Assembly: GCA_902794825.1 (NCBI GenBank)
Contig: CADBIU010000043.1
Coordinates: forward strand, 1-43,451
DNA from: an uncultured Lachnospiraceae bacterium
GTDB lineage: Bacteria; Bacillota; Clostridia; Lachnospirales; Lachnospiraceae
Reading direction: 5' to 3'
Length of the DNA: 43,451 bases
Shown: piece after piece, positions 18,131-26,624 of the stretch
Layout of the letters: each line of letters opens with the position of its first letter
How positions within the stretch are numbered: position 1 is the first letter of the stretch
Notes under the pieces: model-generated
Database searches by the model: none
What the model was told of the DNA's origin: nothing
Seen by the model: the letters and a program-made list of their open reading frames with translations, nothing else
Made by a program: the position numbers and the translations under genes

Positions 18131-18330
18131 TTGTCTGACGTTTAAGTGCCCTTCAAGCACCTCAAAGGGCACTAAAAGGGCAAAAATAGTGTAAAACTGG
18201 TAAATTGCCGTTTAAGTGGCGCTTAAGGTAGTACAGGGGCACTCAAATGGCAGAAATCAAACAAAACTAGTAAATTGCCGTTTGAGTGCCGCTCGAGCAT
18301 CACAAAGGGCACTCAACCGTCAGCCGCCAT
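18131..18330. repeat. Three-unit, 70-bp imperfect tandem repeat between facing terminators
   Basis: Units at 18131-18200, 18201-18270 and 18271 to about 18330 align without gaps at a period of exactly 70 bp. Units 2 and 3 both begin TAAATTGCCGTTT. Shared blocks are CGTTTrAGTG at unit position 9, GGGCACT near position 38 and AAAACTrG at the end of units 1 and 2. In each unit the AGTGCC block is complementary to the GGGCACT block, so each could fold into a hairpin. The array fills the space between the giant gene's terminator and the facing glycosyltransferase terminator. No credible gene was found in it. Confidence 0.9.
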
Positions 18331-21052: not shown

Positions 21053-23014
21053 ATGTTTGACAAACGACTGACGGCCCTGTGCCCGGAGAGCAAAAAATAC
21101 ATTGCGGGAAATGTCATCCTGCAATGGATCGAGCTCTGCATGAACGCCGTGATGATCGGTCTCATCGCCGTTTCGGCGGAGAAGCTTTACCGGGGCGAAC
21201 TGACGCCGCAGAACGCGGCGCCGGCCATAATAGTCATTGCAATTACCATAGTGATCCGTTTCTTTGCGGCGAGATACGCGGTGCGGATGAGCTATCTGGC
21301 GTCCCGCACCGTGAAGCGCAAGCTTCGTGACCTGATCTATAAAAAGCTGTTAAGGCTCGGCATGAGCTACAGGGAGAAGGCGACCACCGCGGAGATCGTA
21401 CAGGAATCGGTGGAGGGAGTAGACCAGCTGGAGAGCTATTTTGGCCAATATGTACCCCAGTTCTTCTACGCTTTTATCGCGCCGGTGACCTTGTTTATTC
21501 TCTTTACGGCGGCGGGAAGCCTGCAGACCGGCCTGATCCTGCTCCTGTGCGTTCCGCTGATCCCGGGCACGATCATGATGGTGCAGAAGATCGCCAAGAA
21601 GATCCTGGCAAAATATTGGGACCAGTACACGAAGCTTGGAAGCGCTTTTCTCGAGAACCTGCAGGGAATGACCACCCTTAAGATCTATCAGGCGGACGGC
21701 TATAAGCATGAGCAGATGAATAAGGAATCTGAGCATTTCCGCGTCGTGACTATGAAAGTCCTGACGATGCAGCTCAACTCCATCATTATCATGGACCTTC
21801 TCGCCTATGGCGGCGCGGCGTTCGGCATCGTGCTGGCGACACATTCCTTCGTGGCGGGGACTCTCGAACTGGCGCCCTGCCTGTTCATGATCCTTCTGTC
21901 AGCGGATTTCTTCCTTCCCATGAGAAGGCTCGGCAGCTACTTCCACGTGGCAATGAACGGAATGGCGGCCAGCGACAGGATCTTCAAATTCCTGGAACTG
22001 GAAGAGCCGGAAGCGAAGACCGTCGAGTTCCCGATAAACGGCGGCAATTTCCTGCTTAAGAGCGTCAGTTTCTCCTACGACGGAGAGAGGGAAGTCCTGC
22101 ACAAGATCAACATGCAGATCCCTAAGAACAGTTTTACGGGCATTGTGGGGGAGAGCGGCAGCGGCAAATCCACCATCGCGTCTCTTCTCATCGGGCGCAA
22201 TACCGTGGAGAGCGGCACGATCATGATCGGCCCCGATCACCTTTCGGAGTGCTCGGAAGAGAGCCGTATGAGGGGGATCACATATATCGGCAGCAGTTCT
22301 TATCTGTTCAAGGGGACTGTCAGGGACAATCTTTTGATGGGAGATCCAGAGGCATACGACGACAGGCTCTGGAAAGTCCTGACAGAGTGCAGAATGGATG
22401 AGTTCCTTAAAGGAGCGGACGGCCTGGACACACAGCTGACCGAGAACGGCCAGAACCTTTCCGGCGGTCAGAGACAGAGGCTTGCCCTTGCAAGGGCTCT
22501 TCTGCATGACAGCCCGGTCTATATTTTCGACGAGGCGACCAGCAACATCGATGTGGAGAGCGAGGAGATCATCCTTGACCGCATCCGCAAGATGAGAGGG
22601 CAGAAGACTATCATCCTGATCTCGCACCGCCTTGTGAATACACGTGACGCTGACCGCATTTTCGTAATAGACAAGGGCAAAATAGCGGAGAGCGGCACGC
22701 ACAGAGAACTGATGAAGTGGGCCGGCACATACTCCGCCCTGTGGAGGACGCAGCAGAAGCTTGAGCGACTGGGAAGAGATGAAGACTCAGGCGAGGAATG
22801 GCTGACCGGAGAGATCGAGAAGATCGCCGCGACAGGGGATCTTGGAGCCACCGGCAGGATCGGCAATACCGGGCGCGTCGGAAATACCGGCCGCGTTGGA
22901 AATACCGGATCGATCGGCAATACCGGCCGCGTCAGAAGCACCGGATCGATCGGAGACACCAGGCGCATCGGAAGTACGGGACAGATCGGAAAGGAGGGGA
23001 GTCAGCATGAGTAA
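21053..23014 (+). CDS. cydD: CydD-like ABC exporter subunit (membrane-ATPase fusion) with a collagen-like C-terminal tail
   Basis: CydDC heterodimers export cysteine or glutathione-type thiols and support cytochrome bd assembly. Residues 1-310 form the six-helix exporter membrane domain. The ATPase domain follows, with Walker A GESGSGKST (366-374), signature LSGGQ (469-473), Walker B IFDEA (491-495) and the H-loop ISHRL. The Q-loop position reads YIGSSSYLF (411-419), where a glutamine is expected; Ser414 is in its place, so the two ATP sites may be unequal. After the normal end of the ATPase comes a tail of Gly-X-Y triplets (598-646). Its stop codon overlaps the next gene by 8 nt. The symbol is by similarity; no cydA or cydB is in view. 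Confidence 0.85.
   Translation: MFDKRLTALCPESKKYIAGNVILQWIELCMNAVMIGLIAVSAEKLYRGELTPQNAAPAIIVIAITIVIRFFAARYAVRMSYLASRTVKRKLRDLIYKKLLRLGMSYREKATTAEIVQESVEGVDQLESYFGQYVPQFFYAFIAPVTLFILFTAAGSLQTGLILLLCVPLIPGTIMMVQKIAKKILAKYWDQYTKLGSAFLENLQGMTTLKIYQADGYKHEQMNKESEHFRVVTMKVLTMQLNSIIIMDLLAYGGAAFGIVLATHSFVAGTLELAPCLFMILLSADFFLPMRRLGSYFHVAMNGMAASDRIFKFLELEEPEAKTVEFPINGGNFLLKSVSFSYDGEREVLHKINMQIPKNSFTGIVGESGSGKSTIASLLIGRNTVESGTIMIGPDHLSECSEESRMRGITYIGSSSYLFKGTVRDNLLMGDPEAYDDRLWKVLTECRMDEFLKGADGLDTQLTENGQNLSGGQRQRLALARALLHDSPVYIFDEATSNIDVESEEIILDRIRKMRGQKTIILISHRLVNTRDADRIFVIDKGKIAESGTHRELMKWAGTYSALWRTQQKLERLGRDEDSGEEWLTGEIEKIAATGDLGATGRIGNTGRVGNTGRVGNTGSIGNTGRVRSTGSIGDTRRIGSTGQIGKEGSQHE
22844..22987 (+). 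repeat. Eight 18-bp units encoding a Gly-X-Y collagen-like tail
   Basis: Eight degenerate 18-nt units encode hexapeptides of the form GNTGRV, GNTGSI, RSTGSI, GDTRRI and GSTGQI. Glycine is kept at every third residue except twice. No proline occurs in the tract. The high nucleotide similarity of neighbouring units (for example GGAAATACCGGC) points to recent slippage expansion. Confidence 0.9.
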
Positions 23015-24701
23015 GAGAACAAAAAAGCGCAAACCCTCCAAGATAGGTACTCTCTTGAGAATGCTCGGAGTGGTCAAACCACTGACCAGTTATATGATCC
23101 TGGCAGTAGTGGCCGGAACTCTTGCATTCCTGGCTGTCCAGTTCATTCCGATCCTCGGAGGATACGCGATCCTGAGCGGGCTCGGCCTGGACGTCCCGAT
23201 CCCGATCAGAACCATTTGGATCCTCCTTCCTGTCCTTGCGCTTTTAAGGGCGGTCCTCCGGTTCGCGGAGCAGCGTCTCAATCACTATATTGCCTTTACT
23301 CTGCTCGCGCTCGTGAGGGACAAAGTGTTCGGCGCGCTCAGAAGACTCTGCCCGGCCAAACTCGAGGGAAAGGACAAGGGAGACCTTGTCGCCCTGATCA
23401 CTTCCGACGTGGAGCTTCTTGAGGTGTTCTACGCGCATACGATCTCGCCGATCTGCATCGCGCTCGTGACCTCGACGATCATGTGCGTCTATATCGGCAC
23501 ATTCCATACAGGACTTGGGCTTCTGGCTCTGGCCGCCTATCTGTGTGTCGGCATTGTTGTTCCTCTTATTATCTCCGGGATCAGCGGCAACATGGGAGAG
23601 AAAGTGCGCAAGCACTCCGCGGACCTCGCCTCCTGCGTTCTGGAGAATATCCGCGGTCTCGATGAGACGATCCAGTATGACAGCAGCCGCAGCCGTATGG
23701 CTGCCATGCACAAGCAATCCAAAGTCCTTCTGTGGCACCAGAATTCGCTGAACCGCCTGACTGGCCTTAACCTGGCGATCGCCAATACCTTTATACTGGT
23801 ATTTGATGTGCTGATGACAGTCTGCGCCGGGTGGCTCTACACGACCGGAAAGGTGGGTTTTGACGGCTTTCTGATCCCGGTACTGGCGCTCCTTTCCTCT
23901 TTTGGCCCGGTTTCGGCACTGGCGAGCCTGGGAACGACTCTGCAAAATACAGTCGCCTCCGGTTCGCGTGTACTTGCGATCCTGGACGAAGAGCCTGAGA
24001 CAGAAGAGATCACGGGAAAACCGGAAGTCGGATTCCACGGAGCGGAGTGCCGCAAGGTCTCCTTCGGCTATGGCAGCACACCGGTGCTGAGAAACTTCTC
24101 CCTGAGTATCCATGAAAACCAGATCATCGGGATCGTGGGCGAGAGCGGCTGCGGCAAGTCGACGCTGCTCAAACTCCTGATGCGTTTCTGGGCGGTCAAC
24201 AAGGGCAGGATCGGAATTGTAGATATTCCCAAGGATTCTGGTGCGGCTGTTGCCTGGGATATCGACCTTGGAGAGATCAATACAACAAATCTTCGAGACA
24301 TGGAAAGTTACATGACTCAGGATACGCAGATGTTCAAGGATACTATTGCGGGCAATATCCGAATCGGGAAACTTGATGCGACGAAAGAGGAAGTGGAAGC
24401 GGCCTGCCGCAAAGCTTCTCTGCACGACTGGATCATGACGCTGCCCGACGGCTACGAAACAGATGTCGGCGAGCTCGGTGACACCCTTTCCGGCGGAGAG
24501 CGCCAGCGAGTCGGACTTGCCAGAGCATTCCTGCACGACGCGCCTTTCATGCTGCTTGACGAGCCGACCAGCAACCTCGACAGCCTCAATGAGGCGGTCA
24601 TTCTCAAGGCGCTTAGGGATGAGGCGAAGGGAAAAACTGTACTGCTCGTATCCCACAGGAAGTCTACTATGAGAGTGGCGGATGTGGAGATACAGATGTG
24701 A
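23007..24701 (+). CDS. cydC: CydC-like ABC exporter subunit (membrane-ATPase fusion)
   Basis: This is the second half of the heterodimer. ATG 23007 follows AAGGAGGGG at about 7 nt; the in-frame upstream extension lies inside the previous gene's repeat and is rejected. The 564-residue protein has the exporter membrane domain (about 25-315) and an ATPase with Walker A GESGCGKST (378-386), a normal Q-loop (MTQD, Gln438), signature LSGGE (494-498), Walker B MLLDEP and SHRKST as H-loop. Translation is probably coupled to cydD by the 8-nt overlap. The gene ends just before a strong terminator. Confidence 0.87.
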   Translation: MSKRTKKRKPSKIGTLLRMLGVVKPLTSYMILAVVAGTLAFLAVQFIPILGGYAILSGLGLDVPIPIRTIWILLPVLALLRAVLRFAEQRLNHYIAFTLLALVRDKVFGALRRLCPAKLEGKDKGDLVALITSDVELLEVFYAHTISPICIALVTSTIMCVYIGTFHTGLGLLALAAYLCVGIVVPLIISGISGNMGEKVRKHSADLASCVLENIRGLDETIQYDSSRSRMAAMHKQSKVLLWHQNSLNRLTGLNLAIANTFILVFDVLMTVCAGWLYTTGKVGFDGFLIPVLALLSSFGPVSALASLGTTLQNTVASGSRVLAILDEEPETEEITGKPEVGFHGAECRKVSFGYGSTPVLRNFSLSIHENQIIGIVGESGCGKSTLLKLLMRFWAVNKGRIGIVDIPKDSGAAVAWDIDLGEINTTNLRDMESYMTQDTQMFKDTIAGNIRIGKLDATKEEVEAACRKASLHDWIMTLPDGYETDVGELGDTLSGGERQRVGLARAFLHDAPFMLLDEPTSNLDSLNEAVILKALRDEAKGKTVLLVSHRKSTMRVADVEIQM

Positions 24702-24719: not shown

Positions 24720-24782
24720 AAAAGGGGCATGACGCATTAAGCGTGAAGGTTTAAAGCCTACGCTTGGCGGCATGCCCCTTTT
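24720..24782 (+). terminator. Long terminator hairpin after the cydC-like gene
   Basis: AAAAGGGGCATG (24720-24731) and CATGCCCCTTTT (24771-24782) pair perfectly over 12 bp. Inside lie a second stem, AAGCG with CGCTT, and a small AGGTTTAAAGCCT-like stem, so the structure is branched. It is nearly symmetrical and could work in both directions. Confidence 0.8.
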
Positions 24783-24849
24783 AAAGTTACATTGGCTGGT
24801 TGGGCAGACTTGTTGGGACAAGTTTTCCAACCATTTTGGCTTGTCGTCA

Positions 24850-25197
24850 AATCCGATGGGACACGAAATGCATGTTTAGCATAAACGCTACATCCATTCC
24901 GGTCTATCGCCAAATTCGATGGGGCTTGAAATGCCAGTCCTGCACAAACTCTCCATCGATATGGGCCTGCATATAAATCGGATGGCGTTTGAAATGACAA
25001 ACTCTCCATCCCAATCCAGGCTTCAGCTGAATCCGGTGGAGAGCAAGCTTTAAAACGCCAAAACAGGCTCCATCCACATATGACCTTTAGTCGAATCCGA
25101 TGGAGAGTAAGCCTTAAAACGCCAAAACAAGCCCCATCCCAATATGACTTCATCTGAATCCGATGGAAAGCAAGATTAAAACGCCCAAATGAGCGCC
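24850..25197. repeat. Six-unit, about 63-bp imperfect tandem repeat between facing terminators
   Basis: Units begin with AATCCGATGG-like sequence at 24850, 24913, 24976, 25030, 25094 and 25157, giving periods of 63, 63, 54, 64 and 63 bp. Later shared blocks are GAAATGC or TTAAAACGCC and CTCCATCC. In each unit GATGG is complementary to CCATC, allowing a short hairpin. The minus strand stays open over 131 codons (25153-24758) with weak 21-residue periodicity, but it has no ribosome binding site. The array fills the space between the cydC-like terminator and the facing symporter terminator. It is not CRISPR: there are no short identical repeats with unique spacers. Confidence 0.9.
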
Positions 25198-25201
25198 AAG
25201 C

Positions 25202-25237
25202 AAAAGGGGCATGCCGCCAATGGCGGCACGCCCCTTA
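25202..25237 (-). terminator. Intrinsic terminator of the symporter gene
   Basis: A 16-bp stem with one G-T pair, AAGGGGCATGCCGCCA (25204-25219) with TGGCGGCACGCCCCTT (25221-25236), is followed on the minus strand by TTTTGC. It shares AAAAGGGGCATG with the hairpin on the other side of the repeat array. Confidence 0.85.
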
Positions 25238-25256
25238 TATAACTAATCTGCTAATG

Positions 25257-26624
25257 TCACATCGAAATCAGCCCAAACGCATTCGCAATCGAACTAAGCA
25301 GAATGATCAGCACGAATACAGGTGCTATATACCTGATCACGACACTGAAGACCTTCTTGCGGCGGAAGGGATGTCCGTCCACTTCTACTTCCTGTTCGAT
25401 GCGCTTAAGGCCGATGCATTTTGAAACGAGCAGGCAGATCGCAAGGGCCGCGATGGGCATCATCACGGAGTTGGTCAGGAAATCGAAGAAGTCCAGGAAG
25501 GGCATTCCGATGATAGTGATAAAGGAAAGCGGTCCGTAGCCGAGGCAGGAGAGCGTTCCGAGAGCGATCATGATCACAGCCATGAATGTGGTGCACTTTG
25601 TGCGGCTCCACTTAAACTCGTCGCAGATGGTGGAGACAGCTGCTTCAGTCAGCGCGATGGAACTCGTGAGTGCCGCGAACAGCACCAGCGTGAAGAACAG
25701 GACGCCTATGATGCGGCCGATCCCCATGCTCGCGAAGATCTTGGGCATTGTGATGAACATGAGAGAGGGACCTGCGCCCAGCTGCTCAGGATCACCGCCC
25801 GAAAATGCGAATACAGCGGGGATGATCATCATGCCGGCCAAAATAGCGACGCCCGTGTCAAAGATCTCGACCTGAACGGTGGAGTCCTCGATGCTGACTT
25901 CCTTCTTCATATAGGATCCGAAGGTGATCAGGATACCCATGGCGATGGACAGCGAGTAGAACATCTGGCCCATTGCTGATACAACAGTCATCCAGGAGAA
26001 GTTCTCAAAGTGGGGGATCAGCATGTAGGAGACGCCCGCCATCGCGCCGGGACGGGTGATCGAGTAGGCGCTTATGACAAGTGCCAGTACCAGAAGGATC
26101 GGCATCATGAACTTGGAAACACGCTCAATTCCGTTTTCCACGCCCATATAGATGATCACAAGGTTGAGGGCTACGAAGACGCAGAACCAGAGTTCAGCGG
26201 AAGCGCCGTTTGTGATGAAATCCGTAAAGAAGGTGTCTGTAGCAATTTCATTCATATCAGTGGTAAGGAATGCAAAAAGATATTTGCATACCCAGCCGCC
26301 GATGACGGAATAGTAAGGGCAGATCAGGACCGGAACGATCGCGTTGATCCAGCCGCCTGCTTTTGCCCAGGGTGAATCACTGAAAAACTTGAACGCGCCC
26401 ACAGGACTTTTCTGCGAAGAGCGTCCGATCGCCGTCTCGGCGATGATCATCGTGTAGCCAAATGTGAGGGCAAGGATGATGTAAACAAGTAGAAAAGCGC
26501 CGCCGCCATATTTAGCAGCCAGATAAGGAAATCTCCAGATATTGCCCAGACCGACGGACGCGCCGGCAGCGGAAAGAACAAATCCAAGCTTACCTGTAAA
26601 TGAACCACGATTATTCTGTTCCAA
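25257..26624 (-). CDS. Sodium-dependent transporter, neurotransmitter:sodium symporter (SNF) family
   Basis: NSS proteins carry amino acids or amines inward with sodium. The 455-residue product begins with the diagnostic first helix region LGFVLSAAGASVGLGNIWRFPYLAAKYGGGAF, where the unwound part of helix 1 binds substrate and sodium, and has about eleven hydrophobic segments, typical of bacterial members. The start is TTG 26624: AAGGAGG lies about 9 nt upstream and the protein starts where the family does. The TTG lies in one arm of a 14-bp inverted repeat whose loop carries the ribosome binding site. A 24-residue membrane peptide is encoded 71 nt upstream. The substrate is unknown; amino acids such as tyrosine, methionine or alanine are family precedents. 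Confidence 0.92.
   Translation of the reverse strand: MEQNNRGSFTGKLGFVLSAAGASVGLGNIWRFPYLAAKYGGGAFLLVYIILALTFGYTMIIAETAIGRSSQKSPVGAFKFFSDSPWAKAGGWINAIVPVLICPYYSVIGGWVCKYLFAFLTTDMNEIATDTFFTDFITNGASAELWFCVFVALNLVIIYMGVENGIERVSKFMMPILLVLALVISAYSITRPGAMAGVSYMLIPHFENFSWMTVVSAMGQMFYSLSIAMGILITFGSYMKKEVSIEDSTVQVEIFDTGVAILAGMMIIPAVFAFSGGDPEQLGAGPSLMFITMPKIFASMGIGRIIGVLFFTLVLFAALTSSIALTEAAVSTICDEFKWSRTKCTTFMAVIMIALGTLSCLGYGPLSFITIIGMPFLDFFDFLTNSVMMPIAALAICLLVSKCIGLKRIEQEVEVDGHPFRRKKVFSVVIRYIAPVFVLIILLSSIANAFGLISM

Follow-up and report, generated by a model that had tools for sequence, protein, structure and literature searches.

The intergenic array described here is a member of a real, lineage-restricted family of composite repeats with an unusual internal grammar, whose strictness lies in two module classes, a single order and a fixed motif geometry. 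Copies of this family are dispersed, gain and lose units in place, keep their modules in strict order, show constraint on their motifs when orthologous arrays are pooled, and lie preferentially at gene ends. Among the explanations considered, we tentatively favour, at close to an even chance, a BOX/BIME-like composite interspersed repeat whose conserved part consists of predicted protein-binding DNA sites, while the DNA-binding protein itself and any insulating role of the arrays are what we infer from these features. With this family, a lineage of the Lachnospiraceae would have a repeat system of the BOX/BIME-like kind whose grammar is unusually strict, and comparison of identical sites between sister species makes unit gain, unit loss and constraint directly measurable. 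If a protein does read the motifs, the arrays also provide an experimentally accessible way to find a new nucleoid or boundary factor. No description of this family was found in the open-licence literature.

The window, that is the whole stretch of 43,451 nucleotides that was analysed, makes up the entire contig C43 of a MAG with a completeness of 84.6% (genome of 2.74 Mb). The array and its immediate neighbours are listed in Table 1.

Table 1. Features at the array site, in window coordinates
Feature	Position	Strand	Remarks
ABC transporter gene (PF00664/PF00005)	23007..24701	+	3' end faces the array
Hairpin 1	24720..24782		terminator-like, 3' of the ABC gene, outside the array family
Whole array	24783..25201	+	A-type part, short centre, B-type part; strand by L-then-R motif order
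Unit 1	24826..24859	+	L motif TCCAACC (degenerate), then R motif AATCCGATGG
Spacer between units 1 and 2	24860..24888	+	class A
Unit 2	24889..24922	+	TACATCC, then AATTCGATGG
Spacer between units 2 and 3	24923..24951	+	class A
Unit 3	24952..24985	+	TCCATCG, then AATCGGATGG
Short central spacer	24986..25004	+	19 nt (usual length minus about 10)
Unit 4	25005..25039	+	TCCATCC, then AATCCGGTGG
Spacer after unit 4	25040..25068	+	class B, with TTAAAACGCC
Unit 5	25069..25103	+	TCCATCC, then AATCCGATGG
Spacer after unit 5	25104..25132	+	class B, with TTAAAACGCC
Unit 6	25133..25166	+	CCCATCC, then AATCCGATGG
Terminal B-like sequence	25167..25201	+	TTAAAACGCC; L motif absent thereafter
Hairpin 2	25202..25238		terminator-like for the convergent minus-strand gene, outside the array family
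Sodium:neurotransmitter symporter gene (PF00209)	25257..26624	-	convergent with the ABC gene

The earlier note on this DNA had placed six units at 24850, 24913, 24976, 25030, 25094 and 25157, with steps of 63, 63, 54, 64 and 63, and these figures are exact. The GATGG/CCATC self-complementarity that it read in each unit is present, but it departs from perfect pairing in units 1 (CCAAC), 2 (ACATC) and 4 (GGTGG). Its view that longer blocks are common to the central four units had to be abandoned, since TTAAAACGCC instead follows units 4, 5 and 6, that is the last half of the array, while exact CTCCATCC is confined to units 4 and 5, with CTCCATCG and CCCCATCC as variants. The central spacer (24986-25004) has GTTTG..CAAAC symmetry and coincides with the switch from the A to the B part. 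At no more than one mismatch, AATCCGATGG matches 11 times in the window, six of these matches being the units, where 4.6 are expected and the maximum in 100 shuffles is 9, indicating that this core is above chance in the window; the TRF score for 25021-25189 is 222.

Across the family, units of 62-64 bp carry two inverted motifs, L (TMCATCC) and R (WATCSGATGK), some variants of the latter reading GATGTAG. The distance from L to R is 24-25 bp in 288 of 292 cases, the step from R to R is 61-65 bp in 255 of 271 (52-54 in nine and 71-74 in four), and the step from R to the following L (n=251) is 37-40 bp in 232 cases, 28-29 in 11 and 47-49 in four, all counted with the antisense duplicate L140 minus and L019 left out. 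The R-to-L steps resemble whole turns of B-DNA, and helical phasing is only suggestive because independent indels are few, two of the +10 spacer cases are local duplications, and the first spacer of L016/L048 carries a 27-bp insertion. A position-blind mixture model of 187 standard-length spacers (leaving out L140 minus, L019 and L175) yielded two classes, with class A (GtgtGngAAAAGCTTGTcTGGCACAAACTC) on the left side of the arrays and class B (..ccAgAAacGCccAAATngGC) on the right. A precedes B in all 44 informative arrays and the order is violated in none of 56, of which 12 hold a single spacer class and cannot violate it; over the 28 independent informative sites, such order would arise by chance with a probability of about 10^-16.6. 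The possibility that the B spacer is the reverse complement of A was rejected (profile correlation 0.14, interiors at most 0.20).

The earlier note had likened the array to a discrete insert, and it did prove to belong to a dispersed family, with about 60 arrays in stretches from five congeneric Lachnospiraceae MAGs. An array row was defined as a chain of at least four detected units, which gives 61 rows, or 60 once the antisense duplicate is set aside; tighter chaining gives 60 chains, or 59 without it. Blastn of the window array against its own genome returned 35 matches at E<=10, eight of them below 1e-4 (self included), and arrays of the same kind were found on nine further contigs, with unit clusters on yet more and an apparent lone unit match on C27 that resembles a decayed array. 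Three contigs of this genome (C24, C51 and C94) end with arrays, which in such positions may break assemblies. The number of units ranges from 3 to 9; of 60 chains, selected for having at least four, 34 consist of 6 or 7. A sequence-only model built from 68 aligned units was searched against 62 congeneric genomes and gave 65-89 matches in each of five (G000, G012, G045, G068 and G070), counts that are lower bounds (87 or 150 candidates scored); at E<=0.01, three of the remaining congeners had one or two matches and 54 had none. In a sample of 392 genomes from the order, in which the own genome is the one array-bearing genome of the five, a motif-pair pattern matched 29 times in the own genome and once in each of 3 of the 391 others, and its reversed control gave 0 matches across the 392. 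The neighbouring symporter has its closest relatives in MAG records, most of them labelled Lachnospiraceae bacterium and several with titles that point to ruminants, and the habitat of the array-bearing lineage is likely to be ruminants. A viral or plasmid origin was rejected, since viral contigs gave three single unit matches, none of them an array, and blastn of array L046 found no phage or plasmid records.

Other repeats occur in the same stretch. At 18139-18316 the window holds a second dispersed tandem family with units of about 70 bp (TTGCCGTTTAAGTGCC..AAAGGGCACTCAAA), which has 17 matches in its own genome including itself (C13, C22, C43, C56, C60 and C61), and a sequence similar to it adjoins a GATGG array in L056. 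A tandem repeat of 36-bp period lies at 22850-22992, near the junction of two ABC transporter genes, and repeats of this period are likewise present in L058, L060, L062 and L063.

Comparison of flanks, limited to the compared loci, identified 16 sites at which between two and four of the five genomes carry an array; array orientation is conserved at 15 of these, the sixteenth (L015/L144/L168/L174/L175) being blurred by repeats. At the window site, the array lies between the same convergent genes in four genomes (the window, L058, L059 and L060), and in G012 its three middle units are missing. Orthologous arrays at the same site differ by whole units, units being gained or lost in place. At the syntenic site UBA4260 (L062) has a 156-bp gap from which the array is absent, and the tandem arrays found in RGIG4446 (L061) are two unrelated ones with a period of exactly 71 bp. 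The latter adjoin each other at 6499-7494 of L061 (10 and 3 copies) and are mutually unrelated, the larger having palindromic 48-bp cores, and in the intergenic regions of both L061 and L062 hairpin-like words, GTGTCAGGGGGACGTATC..GATACGTCCCCGTGACAC, flank the array site. An empty site, as envisaged by the earlier note, was found at another locus, where G000 and G070 have an array directly 3' of a terminator and G012 (G012:C87) has the terminator without the array. Insertion and deletion are not distinguished at this site, which may be a deletion because a word resembling the A spacer is retained. Whole arrays that are 86-96% alike occur at three or four different sites in two genomes, and in these the right end falls right after the last GATGGA. 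Inspection by eye of the one array-less site and a few array copies revealed no target-site duplication.

When orthologous arrays are pooled, motifs change 2.4 times slower than the remaining columns (36 of 1422 motif columns, or 0.025, against 209 of 3432 elsewhere, or 0.061; p=7e-8), a difference drawn from 15 partly overlapping pairs, after 7 of 22 pairs below 80% identity had been dropped, and possibly exaggerated by profile detection, which favours intact motifs, or by conversion between units. A recount over 11 loci (14 pairs, with the local-quality filter omitted) gave a motif rate ratio of 0.41 with a locus bootstrap of 0.24-0.65. At the window site alone the constraint is almost nil (11/189 in motifs vs 28/415 elsewhere); L018 points in the opposite direction on one change each, and L146 has zero changes.

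With regard to gene context, genes were called with our own codon-usage script, which recovered the genes known to surround the window array. Both neighbours were called for 53 arrays, of which 21 lie in convergent, 14 in '++' tandem, 13 in '--' tandem and 5 in divergent position, and by independent sites the figures are 14 convergent, 16 tandem and 4 divergent (binomial about 0.015, one-sided). Since convergent and divergent junctions are about equally frequent per genome, 14 against 4 represents an excess at gene ends, a preference that is modest and may reflect selection against promoter insertion. Array strand shows no transcription polarity relative to gene direction, as the two tandem counts indicate, and this absence of bias speaks for an element at the DNA level. 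A terminator-like signal was found within 120 bp to the left of 18 of the 61 array rows and to the right of 20 (165-bp stretch), against 73 of 825 random 125-bp windows placed anywhere in the loci, a control that is not matched for intergenic position. A link with a particular neighbouring gene was rejected, as in the 15 largest groups, array frames aside, no family adjoins arrays at more than two independent sites. Neighbours that recur at two sites are the PF00209 symporter (window and L171) and an ABC ATPase (window and L173); at L171 (G000:C3), an independent site, it is a relative of the window's symporter that adjoins the array.

The two hairpins that enclose the window array (24720-24782 and 25202-25238) share AAAAGGGGCATG, just as the earlier note had observed, and their inner arms form a perfect 19-nt inverted repeat. 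Its suggestion that they are the edges of an insert does not hold, as the word lies within 200 bp of only 6 of the 61 array rows, and three of those six are the window site in three genomes; the pair and the array do co-occur at the window site in four genomes, but the association is not family-wide. The hairpin word AAAAGGGGCRTGCCGC has 16 matches at no more than one mismatch in the own genome (reversed control 0), four of them at the window site, and 11 of the 12 others are without a nearby array-unit match. The most plausible reading of the twin GGGGCATG hairpins is that they serve as terminators for the two genes converging on the array, and they belong to a separate dispersed repeat. Two hairpin-word pairs bound an unrelated element of about 215 bp, copies of which, with GGCATGYCCCTTTTAAATT ends, lie in opposite orientation at about 1090-1320 of L040 and about 1030-1260 of L041.

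A structured RNA, in which the transcribed array would fold into a single extended hairpin or into several in a row, is in our judgement distinctly improbable. The window array has folding z values of -4.8 (plus) and -7.4 (minus) relative to shuffles, and 52 and 57 of 58 arrays, on the two strands respectively, fall below the mean of 12 shuffles each; however, arrays beat shuffles on both strands because inverted motifs necessarily do so. In addition, the left and right halves of an array pair slightly better with each other than with halves of other arrays (p 0.0003-0.0009 for 33 arrays, one array over 300 nt per site, L140 minus, L019 and L175 left out), and complementary runs are slightly longer in nested arms, at 1.33 as compared to 1.02 for cross-array arms (the folding and pairing tests leaving out L140 minus and L019). 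An excess of half-to-half pairing is also expected because the units are palindromic and homogenised, and the idea that the design serves to form a single nested hairpin was rejected, the excess being weak. Against RNA structure, moreover, the 68-unit alignment gives 0 consensus pairs, TACATC commonly stands opposite GATGG with an A/G mismatch, the pairing schemes are not separable and show no clear covariation, and strand preference relative to genes is absent. A covariance-model scan against Rfam at the gathering score had a tRNA-Ser as its sole match in the window and none in the array, and the earlier note, for its part, had recognised no gene family. That the array is a repeated protein-coding segment, in which 63 bp would equal 21 codons of a frame open in several arrays, hardly deserves credence: frames of at least 80 codons span the array at many loci, but 98 of 255 near-unit spacings (61, 62, 64 and 65) are not multiples of three and the codon-usage caller placed 0 genes inside any of the 61 array rows, and coding was rejected on these two grounds. 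It is also very improbable that RAYT-like Y1 transposases in these genomes generate and mobilise the array as a BIME. Although all five array genomes have Y1 transposases, RAYT-like ones of about 270 codons included, a scan of 14 Y1 loci yielded no convincing GATGG unit (best E 1.7), and a cognate rayt flanked by two inverted array units is absent from these 14 fetched loci. Nine of the 11 Y1 loci with inspected flanks carry ACCCCAGAGGTC or variants and two carry neither repeat, and a search of 15 further congeners found Y1 genes in 11, these being genomes with no more than 2 unit matches. At L207, L209, L211-L216 and L218, RAYT-like Y1 frames (about 250-305 codons from stop to stop) have ACCCCAGAGGTC-type repeats in their flanks, and these repeats together with the RAYT-like genes are likely to be a RAYT-REP system of the genus. 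The ACCCCAGAGGTC word also adjoins arrays L013 and L046, and one congener, G051, has 37 Y1 transposase matches, none of the 19 others searched exceeding 8.

A possibility to be taken seriously, although we lean against it, is that of a composite repeat of MITE/BOX-like type, selfish or neutral and without function for the host, whose motifs would be conserved through recognition by the enzyme that multiplies it and whose gene-end placement would reflect selection against damage. The near-identical whole arrays at different sites, presence and absence at one site, and the lineage restriction are all consistent with this, and pneumococcal BOX, RUP, SPRITE and IS elements are likewise biased to convergent junctions according to the part of the source drawn on here (PMC3049150). 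On the other hand, between two and four of the five genomes carry an array at 16 of the compared sites, arrays vary rather little in size (as the unit counts of the selected chains show), and neither an enzyme nor a target duplication was found. In the preferred explanation of protein-binding DNA sites, for which no binding protein was found, a sequence-specific protein would recognise pairs of the L and R motifs in double-stranded DNA. With L and R at a constant distance and units spanning about six helical turns, every site would face the same side of the helix, and one array could thus load a row of paired half-sites and give rise to a single oriented complex. At convergent gene ends such an array might act as a roadblock or topological buffer while being tolerated elsewhere, and its dispersal may be driven by the motif-reading protein or by another. 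A more specific proposal, which we regard as unlikely, would make the arrays loading platforms for an undescribed chromosome-architecture protein, by which convergent gene ends would be insulated or topologically buffered; what it would draw on are oriented and possibly helically phased clusters of paired inverted sites, with A and B parts, amounting to tens of sites.

Among known systems, CRISPR arrays share the regular unit period and the palindromic motifs. However, both parts of the unit are repeated and diverging here, units diverge throughout, spacers are shared between units, and near-identical repeats with unique spacers are lacking, so that the earlier note was right to set CRISPR aside. 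Like MITEs, the arrays are non-coding, dispersed and missing from one site, but no target-site duplication was seen, no related full transposon was found, and their ends are not base-precise. BIME/REP elements are described, in the portions of the sources cited, as tandem imperfect palindromic units located between genes, often at gene ends, with a cognate RAYT (PMC2817692, PMC3733652); the arrays agree in being tandem imperfect palindromic units between genes and often at gene ends, but GATGG units are absent beside the examined Y1 genes, most of which have their own ACCCCAGAGGTC repeats. REP palindromes of this kind bear a GTAG or CGTC tag at one of their ends. The closest kind is the BOX element of S. 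pneumoniae, compared here by description and not by sequence, for which the cited part of the source gives a composite intergenic structure, boxA-(boxB)n-boxC, with fixed order and a variable number of tandem modules, changes in length between strains, an excess at convergent genes and a narrow host range (PMC3049150). The array differs in its host, its 63-bp units and its two internal spacer classes, A then B, and, unlike BOX, which is predicted to fold, it yielded no consensus RNA fold here. In fixed-order tandem modules of variable number, convergent excess and narrow range, the two are nevertheless alike, and the array may be regarded as similar in kind to both BOX and BIME, with no kinship to either being claimed.
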